Assembly: GCA_016793095.1 (NCBI GenBank)
Contig: JAEUJQ010000012.1
Coordinates: 62,001-126,000 of the forward strand
From: Myxococcaceae bacterium
Lineage (GTDB): Bacteria > Myxococcota > Myxococcia > Myxococcales > Myxococcaceae
Direction of reading: 5' to 3'
Length of the DNA: 64,000 nt
Shown here: positions 27,257 to 32,829 of the stretch, piece after piece
How the letters are laid out: each line of letters begins with the position of its first letter
Numbering within the stretch: the first letter of the stretch is position 1
Notes under the pieces: generated by a model
Databases searched by the model: none
The model's input: the letters and a program-made list of their open reading frames with translations, nothing else
Told to the model about the DNA's origin: nothing
Program-made: the position numbers and the translations under genes

Positions 27257-28357
27257 TCATGACAGCGCCGCGGCCAGCGTCTCCCGCAGGTAGCGTGCGG
27301 CCAGGCCGACCGTGCGCCGAGCGCTGTCGGGCGTCCGCGTGAGCGGCGGGGCCACCTCCATCACGTCACCTCCCAGCAGCCCGACCTCCGAGCCCAGGCG
27401 GCGGATGAGCGCCACCAGCCAGTCGGGCTCGAGGCCATCGGGCTCTGGCGTGCCCGTCGCGTCGGCCCACCTCGAGTCGGTGCCGTCGATGTCGTTGGAG
27501 AAGAGCACGCCCCCCACGCCCGTGGCCTTCACGTGCGCGAGCACCTCGTCGAGCGCGCGGTCGGGGTTCGCGCGAACGTGGCTCGCCCAGAACTGCCGTA
27601 CGCCCAGGGTGGACTCCCAGTGCTCCCGGGTGCGGGCCGTCGCGCGAATGCCGACCTGCGTCAGCCGGCCCGCGCGGCCGAGCACCTCGTTCGCGTGCCA
27701 GCTCCAGGTCGCGAAGCAGTACGTCACTCCCAGGCGCTCCTGCAGCAAGTCGGTATGGGCGTCGGACTGCACGATGCCCCAGGGAGCGCGTCGGCGCGCG
27801 GCGTCCAACGGTCGCACCACCGGCCACGCCGTCGAGTGGTCGCCGCCCAGCGTGAAGGGCTTGAGTCGGGGGTTCAGCGAGAAGAGCAGCGTCCACGCGC
27901 GCTCGGCGATGGACAACGGCGACACCGGCAACGACTCACCCAGGCCCGGGTAGAGCGCGGCCCGCGTCTGCGCCAGCTGCGCGGCCGAGAGCATGTCGTC
28001 GTGGAGCAGCTGCGGCACGACGAAGACATCACCGAGGTCCACCACGCCCATCGCCTCGAGCTTCGCCGGCCAGTCGGCGTCGTCTTCGAGCAGCCGCGCG
28101 CGGATCGCCTGGGGCCCGAGGTTCGCGCCCCGCTGGAACCCCGCCCCCACGTCGCTCGGGATCCCCAGCACCACCCCACGGGCCGAGGCGACCTTCTCGA
28201 GGTTCCGCCGGAAGGCCCGCTCGACCTCTGCGTCCGTGGACACGCGGTAGAGCGAGCGCTGGAGCGCCTGCTGCTCGGCCCTGCCGGTCGAGACGAGGTA
28301 CAGCCCCGCGGCGGCTGGCTTCAGGATGGTCGCGAGCTCGTCCAGAGGCGTCATCAT
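27257..28357 (-). CDS. Arginase/agmatinase/formiminoglutamase family hydrolase
   Basis: A ureohydrolase-fold enzyme of 366 residues. The manganese ligands are present: His in LGGDHSTAW, Asp-His-Asp in QSDAHTD, and the DxDxxD run in SNDIDGTD. Length and an N-terminal extension of about 60 residues exceed classical arginase (about 300). GIPSDVGAGFQRGANLGPQ is the family entry signature. Whether it acts on arginine, agmatine, guanidinobutyrate or formiminoglutamate is not clear; no histidine or arginine pathway genes are nearby. Confidence 0.9.
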   Translation of the reverse strand: MMTPLDELATILKPAAAGLYLVSTGRAEQQALQRSLYRVSTDAEVERAFRRNLEKVASARGVVLGIPSDVGAGFQRGANLGPQAIRARLLEDDADWPAKLEAMGVVDLGDVFVVPQLLHDDMLSAAQLAQTRAALYPGLGESLPVSPLSIAERAWTLLFSLNPRLKPFTLGGDHSTAWPVVRPLDAARRRAPWGIVQSDAHTDLLQERLGVTYCFATWSWHANEVLGRAGRLTQVGIRATARTREHWESTLGVRQFWASHVRANPDRALDEVLAHVKATGVGGVLFSNDIDGTDSRWADATGTPEPDGLEPDWLVALIRRLGSEVGLLGGDVMEVAPPLTRTPDSARRTVGLAARYLRETLAAALS

Positions 28358-28423
28358 CGAACCCCGTCATGCCGCGAGCAGGGCCGGGTCACAAGCGCCG
28401 GCGGGCGGTGTAGAGCGTGAAGC

Positions 28424-29392
28424 GTGGCAACGCCGGTTCCGGTTCACAAACGGCTCAAGCGCTTCGTGCGCTACCTGCTGCTGCGCGCGGCGGCGGCCTT
28501 CGCCTCGCTCTTCCCGGTCGAGTGGACGTCGTCGTTCGGCGCCTCCCTCGGACGGCTCGCCTTCACGCTCGCCCGCAGGGAACGGCAAAAGGCGCTCACC
28601 CACCTCTCGCGCGCCTTCCCCGACAAGCCGGAGGCCGAGCGAGAGGCCATCGCGCGGGCGAGCTTCGCGCACCTGGGCCGCTGCGTTGGCGAGCTCGTCT
28701 GCGTTCGACAGATCGACGAGAGGCTCGACGAGTGGGTCGAGTGGCCGAAGGAGAGCCGCGCCGTGCTCGACGCGGCGCTGGCCCGTGGGAAGGGCGTCGT
28801 GTTCGTCTCCGGCCACATCGGCAACTGGGAGCTGACCGCTCGCGGAGTCACTGCCCGCGGCTACCACGGCACCAGCATCGCGCGGGAGGCCAGCGATCCC
28901 CGCACCACGGCCTTCATCGAGAAGCTGCGCGCGTCGGGTAACACGGGCTCCATCTGGCGCGGGCACCCCGGGGCGGCGAAGGCGATGCTGAGGCAGCTCC
29001 GTGCTGGGAAGATCCTGGGCCTCCTGATCGACCAGGACACGAAGGTGCAGTCCGTCTTCGTGCCGTTCTTCGGCCAGCTCGCGTCCACCCCCCGCGCGGC
29101 GGCGGATCTGGCCCTGCGCACGAAGGCCGCCCTGATCGTCGGCCTGTGCCCGCGCGTCGGGCCGCACCAGTACCGCCTCGAGCTGGAAGAGGTCCCGGTG
29201 CCCGAACGCCATGACGAGGCGACGGTGATCGCGCTCACTGCGACCCTCACCGCGAAGCTCGAGGCCGCCATCCGCGCTCGACCCGACCAGTGGGTGTGGA
29301 TGCACGAGCGGTGGAAACGACAGCCCGAAACCGCTTCCGCGCCCATCGACAGCGCGCCCCCGAGCCACCATACTCGCGCCCCCTCAACCTGA
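28424..29392 (+). CDS. LpxL/HtrB-type lysophospholipid acyltransferase
   Basis: A 322-residue inner-membrane-associated acyltransferase of the lipid A late-acyltransferase family. The catalytic HX4E motif is in SGHIGNWE (about 128-135), and LIDQD follows at the expected distance. An N-terminal hydrophobic segment near 18-38 would anchor it. GTG start. It probably adds a secondary acyl chain to lipid A or another glycolipid. It is followed 13 nt later by a small myxobacterial-type gene, so these may be co-transcribed. Confidence 0.9.
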   Translation: MATPVPVHKRLKRFVRYLLLRAAAAFASLFPVEWTSSFGASLGRLAFTLARRERQKALTHLSRAFPDKPEAEREAIARASFAHLGRCVGELVCVRQIDERLDEWVEWPKESRAVLDAALARGKGVVFVSGHIGNWELTARGVTARGYHGTSIAREASDPRTTAFIEKLRASGNTGSIWRGHPGAAKAMLRQLRAGKILGLLIDQDTKVQSVFVPFFGQLASTPRAAADLALRTKAALIVGLCPRVGPHQYRLELEEVPVPERHDEATVIALTATLTAKLEAAIRARPDQWVWMHERWKRQPETASAPIDSAPPSHHTRAPST

Positions 29393-29405
29393 TCCGAGGT
29401 GCACC

Positions 29406-29849
29406 ATGACTGACGAGACCGATTCCGCCGGCAACCCTGAAGTCGACATGCTCGACGCGCCTCCCCCCATCAGCGCGGAGCTGCGCGCGAAGATTCTCGC
29501 GGATCCGAACGTGGCGAAGATCGCGAAGGAGCTGGGCAAGGACCTCGATGAGTACGTCAACACCATCGGCTACTACATCAACAACCCGGGCACCGAGCCG
29601 GGGTTCCTGGTCGTCGATGATGACGACTTGAGGAAGATGGGGGTCGAGCCCCCCACCGCCGAGCAGCTCGAGGCCAACGTCCGCCAGAGCGTCGAGGCCT
29701 TCAAGGCAGGCCAGGCCCCCAGTGGTTTTGACGCGCCCCGCCGCAACACGCTCGAGCTCGCGGCGCAGGGCGGAAAGCCGGTCGAGGCCGCTCCTGATCC
29801 GGACCTCGAAGACACGGTCAAGAAGTCCCGCCGGCCAGGGAAGTTCTGA
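29406..29849 (+). CDS. Hypothetical acidic protein, 147 aa
   Basis: Begins 13 nt after the acyltransferase stop with a GAGGTGC site, so probably the same transcript. Acidic N-terminal half with a helical segment (ELRAKILADPNVAKIAKELG), a compact middle (EYVNTIGYYINNPGTEPGFLVVDDDDL), and a flexible basic end (KKSRRPGKF). No signal or membrane helix. I do not recognise it. The clean reading frame and codon use support a real gene. Confidence 0.75.
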   Translation: MTDETDSAGNPEVDMLDAPPPISAELRAKILADPNVAKIAKELGKDLDEYVNTIGYYINNPGTEPGFLVVDDDDLRKMGVEPPTAEQLEANVRQSVEAFKAGQAPSGFDAPRRNTLELAAQGGKPVEAAPDPDLEDTVKKSRRPGKF

Positions 29850-29950
29850 GCTTTCAACTGGTTGCAGCCGCAAGTTCCCACGCAACTCTCGGTCTCAGCG
29901 GACGAGAATCACTTCACAGCAGTCTCCCCTTCCCCTCACAGGAGTCGATC

Positions 29951-30421
29951 ATGGCCTTCATCAAGAAGATTGGCAGCGCGTTCAAGAAGATCGGTAACTT
30001 CGCGAAGAAGGCTGTCGGCTTTGCCAGCAAGATCCTCAACGGCCCCATCGGGAAGCTCGCCTCGTTCATCCCTGGCGTCGGCCCGTTCATCGCTGGCGCG
30101 TCCAAGATCGTCGGCATCGCGAACAGCGTGATCAACGGCGGCGGCCTCAAGGGCATCATCGGCGGCCTCGTCGGCAACCTGGGCGGTGGCCTGTTGGGCA
30201 AGGCCGGCTCGCTCCTCAGCAACACGGGCCTCGGCTCGATCATCGGCATGGGCAGCAAGATCGCGAACAGCGGCGGCATCATGGACATGGTCAAGGGCCT
30301 GATGACGTCACGCCAGGGCGACCAGTCGCCACAGGCTCAGGGCGACGTCTACAACCTGACCCAGTTCTCGGCCTTCCGCCTGGCGCAGCTCTTCAGGCAG
30401 CAGACGCAGGCCGCGCAGTAA
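29951..30421 (+). CDS. Cationic, Gly-rich amphipathic protein, 156 aa
   Basis: Residues 1-28 (MAFIKKIGSAFKKIGNFAKK onward) form a strongly basic amphipathic helix with Lys pairs every 7-8 residues. The middle (about 33-110) is Gly/Ile/Leu/Ala-rich with PGVGPFIAGASKIVGIAN and repeated GG(L/I) motifs, suitable for membrane association. The last 30 residues are Gln-rich and hydrophilic (SPQAQGDVYNLTQFSAF). There is no cleavable signal. An AGGAG site 7 nt before the ATG, lower GC than its neighbours and a strong terminator after it all suggest high expression. Could be a membrane-active peptide, bacteriocin-like or a structural protein; not recognised. Confidence 0.8.
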   Translation: MAFIKKIGSAFKKIGNFAKKAVGFASKILNGPIGKLASFIPGVGPFIAGASKIVGIANSVINGGGLKGIIGGLVGNLGGGLLGKAGSLLSNTGLGSIIGMGSKIANSGGIMDMVKGLMTSRQGDQSPQAQGDVYNLTQFSAFRLAQLFRQQTQAAQ

Positions 30422-30444
30422 CGGTCAGCCGACTCGTCGAAGTG

Positions 30445-30480
30445 ACGGGGTGCACGTTCGCGTGCGCCCCGTTTCATTTT
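30445..30480 (+). terminator. Intrinsic terminator with UUCG tetraloop
   Basis: A 12-bp stem (ACGGGGTGCACG against CGTGCGCCCCGT, one T-G wobble) closes a TTCG loop and runs straight into TTTCATTTT. It lies 24 nt after the stop of the Gly-rich gene and 30 nt before the LigD-type gene, separating the two transcripts. It is the clearest intrinsic terminator I see in the window. Confidence 0.88.
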
Positions 30481-30509
30481 GAGGGAACGACCCGTGCCGG
30501 GCTTGAGGA

Positions 30510-32036
30510 GTGGTCGCGCCGGGCTACCGTCCCCTCGTGGCTCCTCGCCGTGCCAGCGCTTCCTCCGGTCCAACCGCCTGGCGGCTCGCGTCGCGGCTCA
30601 AACCGACGCACCTGCGGATGGCCACTGCTGACGAGGTGGCGGCGCTCGGCGTGTCGTCCCACGAGTTCGAGCTGGAGGTCGCGTGGGACGGACACCCGGT
30701 GTTGGTGGCGAAGGCCGGCCAGGACGTGCGGGTGTTCGCGGACGACCTGCGCGAGTGGTCCGCACCGGCGCAGAACGTGGCGCTCACGGTGCGCGATCTC
30801 CCCGCCGATGAGCTCGTGCTCGAGGGCAGGCTCTGCGTGCTCGACGCGCACGGCCGGCCAGACTTCGCCCTGCTCAAGGAGCGCGCCTCGAAGGGCACAG
30901 GCCCGGCTCCGGTGCTGATGGTGTCCGACGTCCTCGTCCACGACGGTCAGGACCTCTCCGGGGCGCCGCGGACGACGCGCCGCGAACGCCTCCCTCCCTC
31001 GGGTGCCCCGCTGGTGCGCTCCGAGGTGCTGGAGGGCTCGCTCGACGAAGTGCTCGCGAAGGTGCGCCAGCTCGGCCTGCCCGGCGTCATCGCGTACCGA
31101 CGCGGCGGGCCACGTGAGGCGCTCGCGATCTCAGCGACGCCGACGCCCCTGCCCCTCAAGCGCTCGTTGTCGATGCCCCCTCGCGTGACCAACGCCGACA
31201 AGGTGCTCTACCCGAACGACGGCATCACCAAGCAGCACGTGCTCGACTGGTACCGCGAGATCGCGCCGGTTTTCTTGCCGCACCTGAGGGATCGCCCCGT
31301 CGTCTCGCAGCGGTGGCCTGACGGCATCGACGAGTTCACCTGGTTCCAGCACCGGCCCCCGCCCCGCGCCCCGGACTACCTCGACGCGGTCGCCATCGAC
31401 GGCGATCGCCGCCTGCTGGTGCAGAACACGGACGCGCTGCTGTGGATGGTGAACCAGGCGGCGCTCACGTTCCACACCTGGTCCTCGCGGGTCGGCTCGC
31501 TGATGAACCCCGACTGGGCCGTCGTCGATCTCGATCCGGGCACGCGCACCACCTGGCCGCAGGTCATCGAGGTCGCGACCGCGGTGAGGCGGTTGCTCGA
31601 GCTGCTGGAGGTGCCCAGCGTGGTGAAGACGAGCGGTCAGAAGGGACTGCACGTGCTGGTGCCCCTCGCGCCTGGTCAGACCCTCGAGCAGGCGCACCGC
31701 TTCTCGCTCGGCGTGTGCTCGATGGTCGCGCAGCTGCTCCCCGAGGCGGTGAGCCTCTCGCACGACGAGAAGGAGCGGCGAGGCCGCCTCTTCCTCGATC
31801 ACCTGCAGAACTTCCGCGGCAAGACGCTGGTGGCGCCCTACTCGCTCCGCGCCGTCGATCGCGCCCCGGTGTCCACGCCGCTGCGCTGGGACGAGGTGAC
31901 GCCGTCGCTCGACCCCAGGGCCTTCACCCGCGCGGTGGTGCTCGATCGTCTGGCGCAGTTCGGCGATCTCTTCGCGCCGGTGCTGACCCGAGGGGTCCAG
32001 CTCGAGGGCGCCCTCGCGAAGCTCGCGGGCCGGTGA
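30510..32036 (+). CDS. LigD-type primase-polymerase with degenerate ligase domain
   Basis: A 508-residue protein in two parts. Residues about 25-205 follow the adenylation domain of ATP-dependent DNA ligase, but the key residues are lost: Ala58 for the catalytic Lys of motif I (EVAWDG), EGR for DGE in motif III (105-107), Tyr196 for the Lys of motif IV (PGVIAYR). The OB-fold domain is absent. Residues about 222-508 are the LigD polymerase (AEP Prim-Pol) domain: TNADKVLYP, the metal pair DLDP near 340, and TSGQKGLHV. It should extend or fill DNA ends in NHEJ but cannot ligate. No Ku gene is nearby. GTG start just downstream of the terminator. Confidence 0.9.
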   Translation: MVAPGYRPLVAPRRASASSGPTAWRLASRLKPTHLRMATADEVAALGVSSHEFELEVAWDGHPVLVAKAGQDVRVFADDLREWSAPAQNVALTVRDLPADELVLEGRLCVLDAHGRPDFALLKERASKGTGPAPVLMVSDVLVHDGQDLSGAPRTTRRERLPPSGAPLVRSEVLEGSLDEVLAKVRQLGLPGVIAYRRGGPREALAISATPTPLPLKRSLSMPPRVTNADKVLYPNDGITKQHVLDWYREIAPVFLPHLRDRPVVSQRWPDGIDEFTWFQHRPPPRAPDYLDAVAIDGDRRLLVQNTDALLWMVNQAALTFHTWSSRVGSLMNPDWAVVDLDPGTRTTWPQVIEVATAVRRLLELLEVPSVVKTSGQKGLHVLVPLAPGQTLEQAHRFSLGVCSMVAQLLPEAVSLSHDEKERRGRLFLDHLQNFRGKTLVAPYSLRAVDRAPVSTPLRWDEVTPSLDPRAFTRAVVLDRLAQFGDLFAPVLTRGVQLEGALAKLAGR

Positions 32037-32103
32037 GCTGCCCTGGGCAGCGCGCGAACTCGTTCGACGAACGACGACGGACGTGGCTCCGACAGCCGCC
32101 GAC

Positions 32104-32825
32104 TCAGAGCGTCGGGAGCATCGCGTTCGCCTCGGCGAGCAGGCCGGCGACCGCATCGTGGGCTTCGCGCGTCAACGCCTCCCGATCATCGACCCCGCGT
32201 CCCTTCGTCTCGATCGGCTTGCCGATGACCAGCGCCGCGGGCCTGGGGCGGATGGTGACGGTGCCCTTCGGCAGGATCTCGTGTGTGCCCGCGACGGCCG
32301 CCGGCACCAGCGGCACCTGCGCCTCGAGGGCCATGATGGCCGCGCCCTTCTTGAAGGGGCGCAGCACGCCGTCCTCGCTGCGCGTCCCCTCGGCGAAGAA
32401 CGCGACGCTGACCCGGTTGCGCACGGCGTCGGCCGCCTGCCGGAGCTTCTCCTTGTCACCCTCTCCGCCCGTGCGATCGACGAAGACGTTCCCAGCGCGC
32501 TCCATGGCGTAGCCGAGGACCGGCACCTTCCGCAGCTGCTGCTTGGCGACGAAGCGCATGTGCCGGTGGATGTGGCGGTACAGCACCAGCACGTCGAAGT
32601 TCGACTGGTGGTTCACGCACAGCACGAAGTTGCCCGTGGGCAGGTTCTCGAGGCCACGGCAGGCGGTGCGTACGCCAGAGATCCTCAGCAACGAATCAGC
32701 CCAGGCACGGATGACGGGGTCAGGCGCGTTCTCGTCGACGAGGGTGAGCACGGCGACCAGGCTCGAAGCGGTGCCCGTCAACCCGACGACGCTCGCGCCC
32801 GACACCAGCGTTCTCAACAGATCTC

Positions 32826-32829
<4 letters not shown>
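32104..32829 (-). CDS. 1-acyl-sn-glycerol-3-phosphate acyltransferase (PlsC family)
   Basis: A 241-residue membrane-bound acyltransferase that should make phosphatidic acid. The NHX4D motif is NHQSNFD and the phosphate-binding motif is EGTRSEDG. An N-terminal hydrophobic segment (LVSGASVVGLTGTASSLVAV) anchors it. The ATG overlaps the stop of epmA by 4 nt (ATGA), giving translational coupling of two apparently unrelated functions. Confidence 0.92.

Follow-up and report, generated by a model that had tools for sequence, protein, structure and literature searches.

What could a LigD-like protein contribute to a cell if its ligase domain can no longer seal DNA? This question is raised by an open reading frame of 508 aa (positions 30510-32036, + strand) in the window, i.e., the whole 64,000-nucleotide stretch of a Myxococcaceae bacterium contig that was analyzed, which encodes a LigD primase-polymerase (Pol) domain preceded by the degenerate core of an ATP-dependent ligase. 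The original prediction described the product as a LigD-type polymerase with a dead ligase domain that would bind DNA ends and polymerise without sealing them, the domain being kept for a structural or regulatory role.

Gene structure and transcription

Because the starts of orthologues agree and a TAnnnT-type box lies shortly upstream, the true start is probably GTG 30537, giving a protein of 499 aa, and not position 30510 as first proposed (Table 1). Similar boxes are also found just 5' of the start codon in orthologues, and the transcript is likely to be leaderless, although a strict sigma-70 scan detected no promoter for the gene. A terminator-like hairpin separates the gene from the preceding ORF, suggesting that it is probably its own transcription unit. 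Conservation of the gene in seven genomes rules out a strand or frame artefact.

Table 1. Features of the dead LigD gene, with related loci of another genus in the last line. Ala58, residues 105-107 and Tyr196 follow the 508-aa numbering; domain residues 14-199 follow the 499-aa numbering.
Feature	Position	Strand	Basis
Terminator-like stem-loop between preceding ORF and dead LigD gene	30444..30473	+	
TACCGT, -10-like box, 6 nt 5' of the start codon	30525..30530	+	
Ligase-dead LigD paralogue, 499 aa (probable start)	30537..32036	+	open frame, orthologue starts, upstream box
Degenerate ligase nucleotidyltransferase (NTase) core, residues 14-199 of 499	30576..31133	+	TIGR02779, Foldseek
Ala58 codon replacing motif I Lys	30681..30683	+	alignment with intact LigDs
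EGR 105-107 replacing DGE (motif III)	30822..30830	+	alignment, LEGRL
Tyr196 replacing motif IV Lys	31095..31097	+	alignment, GVIAYR 192-197
LigD-type primase-polymerase domain	31185..32006	+	PF21686, TIGR02778, Foldseek
5'-phosphate pocket	31185..31232	+	alignment
Truncated loop 1	31377..31436	+	alignment of Pol domains
DLDP metal pair, residues 340-343	31527..31538	+	
Third metal Asp, residue 430	31797-31799	+	
OB-less PE-Lig-Pol LigDs of another genus	L118, L119 (G112, G116); L140, L141 (G108, G109)		

Loss of ligase motifs

When the protein is aligned with intact LigDs, VAWDG (57-61) corresponds to xKxDG, which places Ala58 at the position of the adenylated Lys, and EGR and Tyr196 likewise occupy lost catalytic positions, all as first described. 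The motif IIIa Phe is also altered (FxFD to MVSD). The reported absence of the OB fold is borne out as well, since the ligase-profile match stops at motif IV, with motif V deleted too and the Pol domain starting about 30 residues further on. The NTase core matched TIGR02779 below its cut-off (9.7e-18, 64 bits against 228), scored 19.3 bits with the Pfam ligase domain, short of the 26.2 cut-off, and the protein reached 311.8 bits with TIGR02776 (DNA ligase D, equivalog), below 373.2, with the Pol part only as the best stretch. No phosphoesterase domain is present in the protein.

The motif I Lys is lost in 7/7 orthologues (Ala in six copies and Phe in one), and at the motif IV Lys position orthologues have Phe, Arg, Ser or Thr-type residues instead. 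Considering that the motif losses are common to the six intact orthologues, which are only 41-83% identical in pairwise comparisons of the ligase domain, they represent more than chance. The Lys is present in 55 of 66 distinct ligase-domain sequences, and two do not cover the position; the remaining nine are the seven orthologues and two from another genus. A shift of the motif I Lys to another place was ruled out by the alignment, because the N-domains of the six intact orthologues share no invariant Lys (the core of one orthologue contains only one Lys), and the dead-ligase reading stands. The pseudo-ligase domain contains invariant blocks (DLREW and CVLD..GRPDF) and is acidic, with a net charge of -5 to -6 and a pI of about 5, compared with a charge of about 0 in most intact relatives.

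Predicted structure

An AlphaFold model built with 28 aligned LigD proteins had a mean pLDDT of 91.5 and a pTM of 0.80. Foldseek matched its N-terminal part to the M. tuberculosis LigD ligase domain (1vs0 and 6nhz; rmsd 2.7 A over about 192 columns), with NTase fold matches to 1vs0, 6nhz, and 2cfm at probability 1.00, and its C-terminal part to the LigD polymerase domains 5dmu, 2fao, and 2iru and to Prim-PolC (rmsd about 2-3 A). This model partly inherits the fold of the relatives because the alignment included intact LigDs; it replaced a model built from six dead proteins alone, in which the N-domain had a pLDDT of about 80, the ligase matches were unchanged, and the Pol domain was poor. At the level of predicted structure, the combination of a ligase NTase core with a LigD Prim-Pol domain is confirmed, in agreement with the ligase fold and LigD kinship proposed from the sequence. 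Alignment and model together show a ligase domain that appears to retain its fold without any ligase chemistry.

Polymerase domain and loop 1

The Pol domain is well matched by PF21686 (Pfam LigD_Prim-Pol; 3.4e-78, 263.2 bits against a cut-off of 27.4) and by TIGR02778 (252.8 bits, exceeding the cut-off of 214.7). Its active site is kept, as had been predicted from DLDP and SGQKGLHV (375-382): both motifs and the third Asp are intact, and in the alignment the His and Ser favouring ribonucleotides are retained together with all three metal Asp. In the 5'-phosphate pocket, for which Asn13, Lys16, and Lys26 of LigD Pol were taken from PMC8656161, both Lys (Mtb K16 and K26) are present in 6/6 intact orthologues; Asn13 is kept in the window's protein and replaced by Ser in three orthologues.

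Between its anchors, loop 1 has 18 residues in all six intact copies, compared with 22-24 in all other Pols examined, which comprised other LigD polymerases, M. tuberculosis, Prim-PolC, and 12 further proteins (mostly stand-alone Prim-Pols). Among these Pol domains the shortening is seen solely in the dead clade; loop 2 is of normal length. The deletion affects the hairpin bearing Mtb His83 and Prim-PolC Pro94, Ser95, and Arg97, the latter three of which contact the template (PMC7442782), and loop 1 has been reviewed as critical for the synaptic complex (PMC8656161). We infer from these residues that gap filling would be retained and end synapsis weakened. Since loop 1 is short, the protein is better read as a polymerase that fills gaps and carries a pseudo-ligase domain for structure or docking than as a standard NHEJ ligase.

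Distribution and genomic context

The dead protein was detected in seven Archangium-type genomes of only two genera (96 family, 145 order, 147 class, and 195 phylum genomes searched), with a gap in the N-domain profile search between E 1e-54 and 1e-24, followed by ordinary LigDs. Five loci were found in GTDB contigs (titled Archangium sp., Archangiaceae or Myxococcales), all among the seven and all from metagenome-assembled carriers. A wider spread on plasmids was rejected: the N-domain matches were <60% identical (30-34% among those listed), and most were annotated as ordinary LigD. In one orthologue (G009), the polymerase reading frame is interrupted by a TAG (L070 near 10484); either the gene is truly broken there or the assembly is wrong.

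In the window's genus a hutG-like gene of the arginase family and plsC flank the gene, and in three of the seven searched genomes of this genus these two genes surround an empty position; the second genus carries the gene at another, conserved locus. The content of the arginase-plsC interval (27257-32829 in the window) varies within the genus: it may be empty or hold lpxL only or the pseudo-LigD only, and here it contains lpxL, two unknown small ORFs with no Pfam match (29406-29849 and 29951-30421), and the pseudo-LigD. The product of the second small ORF is Gly/Ile-rich and hydrophobic and begins MAFIKKIGSAFKKIGNFAKKAVG. Membership in a defence system was ruled out, as PADLOC gave no match. 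No linkage of the dead LigD gene to Ku or any repair gene was seen in the carrier genomes, and no ligase gene adjoins it among its neighbours.

Ku and a separate Lig-Pol LigD are present elsewhere in the genome in 7/7 carriers vs 4/6 non-carriers of the two genera, and the ligase motifs are intact in those of the carriers' Lig-Pol LigDs that were read. In the second genus, Ku adjoins the Lig-Pol LigD. The window's genome has one Ku, at another locus, which retains its C-terminal helix (VVDLMEALKASLARTG), and an intact Lig-Pol LigD of 619 aa on contig C31 (L034:5267-7126); the LigD phosphoesterase family had no match in this genome. At least two ATP-dependent ligase ORFs with KxDG occur besides the Lig-Pol LigD, among them the ATP-ligase-like L166 (C66) and L167 (C63), with frames of 594 and 391 aa in this genome (G000). 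The separate ligase that the original prediction called for is thus available. In G011 (L145, L073), there are two Ku genes, each adjoining a LigD (one PE-Lig-Pol and one Lig-Pol), and the dead LigD is unlinked to them.

Origin and relationship to known LigD systems

In Pol-domain trees the dead proteins form a separate clade with 100/100 support, outside both the Lig-Pol paralogues and the PE-Lig-Pol LigDs; the deeper branches are not firmly placed. A recent origin by loss from this genome's own Lig-Pol paralogue was ruled out because the two Pol domains fall in different clades, each supported. That paralogue, a Bacillus-type two-domain LigD, has the same order of ligase core and Prim-Pol but differs in having KxDG, DGE, the Lys of motifs IV and V, an OB fold, and a long loop 1, and its Pol domain is 36-38% identical to that of the dead LigD. 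The nearest Pol domains by identity (44-50%) are those of PE-Lig-Pol LigDs from Myxococcaceae-type genomes and relatives, which have a phosphoesterase-type N-terminal part, an intact ligase, and a long loop 1. Mycobacterium Prim-PolC, a short-gap repair polymerase, is likewise a LigD-like Prim-Pol without its own ligase (Foldseek rmsd 2.1-2.4 A), but it has no pseudo-ligase domain, and its loop 1, C-terminal loop 3, and LigC operon (PMC7442782) have no counterpart here; its sequence match to the dead LigD extends only to residue 286 of the 331-residue chain, stopping short of loop 3.

A comparable loss was found elsewhere in the order, in another genus, where the PE-Lig-Pol LigDs of four genomes (G108, G109, G112, and G116) also lack the OB fold but, unlike the dead LigD, keep the N-terminal phosphoesterase part. 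The Lys is retained in two of them and replaced by Ala in G108/G109, where Pol residues are damaged too (DLDP to ELDA, His111 to Asp). Each of the four genomes also encodes an intact set of motifs, in G108 and G109 within a second LigD and in G112 and G116 within a second ligase domain. A shared origin with the window's clade was ruled out by their separate clades in the Pol tree, and sealing has therefore been lost in a spare LigD at least twice. The original view that such a domain is unusual holds for the open-access literature searched, in which we found no report of a LigD with an inactive ligase, but not within the order, given this parallel case.

Selection on the two domains

In the two closest orthologue pairs, dN/dS was 0.17 and 0.27 for the dead N-domain and 0.04 and 0.15 for the Pol domain, whereas the intact Lig-Pol paralogue of the same genome pairs gave 0.04 and 0.08 for the NTase and 0.08 and 0.11 for Pol; these are simple Nei-Gojobori estimates at a GC3 of 0.84-0.94 and are therefore rough. 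The comparison with the paralogue indicates that purifying selection on the dead domain is relaxed but still acts and that the Pol domain is about as constrained as a working enzyme. The four OB-less LigDs of the other genus have N-domain dN/dS values of 0.33-0.40, closer to drift. A kept structural role for the pseudo-ligase domain, as first suggested, agrees with its conservation, with its well-folded model, and with this selection.

Possible functions of the dead LigD

We consider that the protein is a ligase-dead LigD paralogue that probably survives as a repair polymerase. The polymerase would bind a short gap at its 5'-phosphate side, filling it with ribonucleotides, and the dead NTase core may act as a structural and protein-docking platform. 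Sealing of the nick would fall to another ligase, for which the genome's own intact Lig-Pol LigD is the simplest candidate. The most plausible docking partner would be the C-terminal helix or the core of Ku. Docking is the leading idea for the dead domain because work in Bacillus proposed that the Ku C-terminal helix (supported by AlphaFold) and core contact the ligase domain (PMC13201618). However, older work assigns the Ku contact to the Pol domain (PMC7719229), so docking need not involve the dead domain, and Ku docking by this domain is a lead, not a result. Counting against the favoured reading are a selection that is 3-4 times weaker on the dead domain than on the paralogue's working NTase, the lack of a repair-gene link, the in-frame stop in 1/7 copies, and the 3/7 genomes of the genus without the gene. 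As for the NHEJ factor of the original prediction, kinship to LigD holds, but an end-binding role is unsupported or unproven because Ku is unlinked, the N-domain is acidic and without an invariant Lys, and loop 1 is truncated.

The same relaxed selection, interrupted copy, and empty position still flanked by the hutG-like gene and plsC might instead mark a relic in slow decay, in which a duplicate LigD lost its ligase first, the N-terminal half is drifting, and the gene is being lost; the parallel LigD of G108/G109, which lost ligase and Pol residues alike, could be seen as such a course. We regard this as unlikely, considering the fully conserved Pol active site with Pol dN/dS down to 0.04, six open frames in two genera at two different conserved loci, and the invariant blocks in a dead domain whose model folds well. 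An NHEJ regulator or competitor, occupying Ku or break ends without joining them and so restraining the Lig-Pol LigD, would fit the constant co-occurrence with Ku and a second LigD and a synapsis weakened by loss of loop 1, but it appears improbable: conserved polymerase chemistry would be needless, there is no regulatory linkage, and the co-occurrence amounts to only 7/7 carriers vs 4/6 non-carriers. Although Bacillus and Pseudomonas LigD have a 5'-dRP lyase activity, located in Bacillus in the ligase domain (PMC4770248), it is very improbable that the kept domain supplies dRP lyase activity or DNA binding, because the six N-domains share no invariant Lys, one having a single core Lys, and the core is acidic (charge and pI as above).

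Implications for the LigD family

The dead LigD is a new variant of LigD and not a new kind of system. Returning to the reading as a repair polymerase, we tentatively suggest that it might even represent a new functional LigD class, in which a pseudo-ligase docking module and a loop-1-less gap-filling polymerase serve Ku or excision repair beside a working LigD, with a similar path taken independently in another myxobacterial genus. Having naturally lost sealing, the OB fold, and loop 1 while retaining the polymerase and the NTase fold, the dead LigD offers a separation-of-function variant that is ready for use. The protein bears on which part of LigD contacts Ku and on whether the domains must share one polypeptide, and it predicts a role of the NTase fold apart from ligation.
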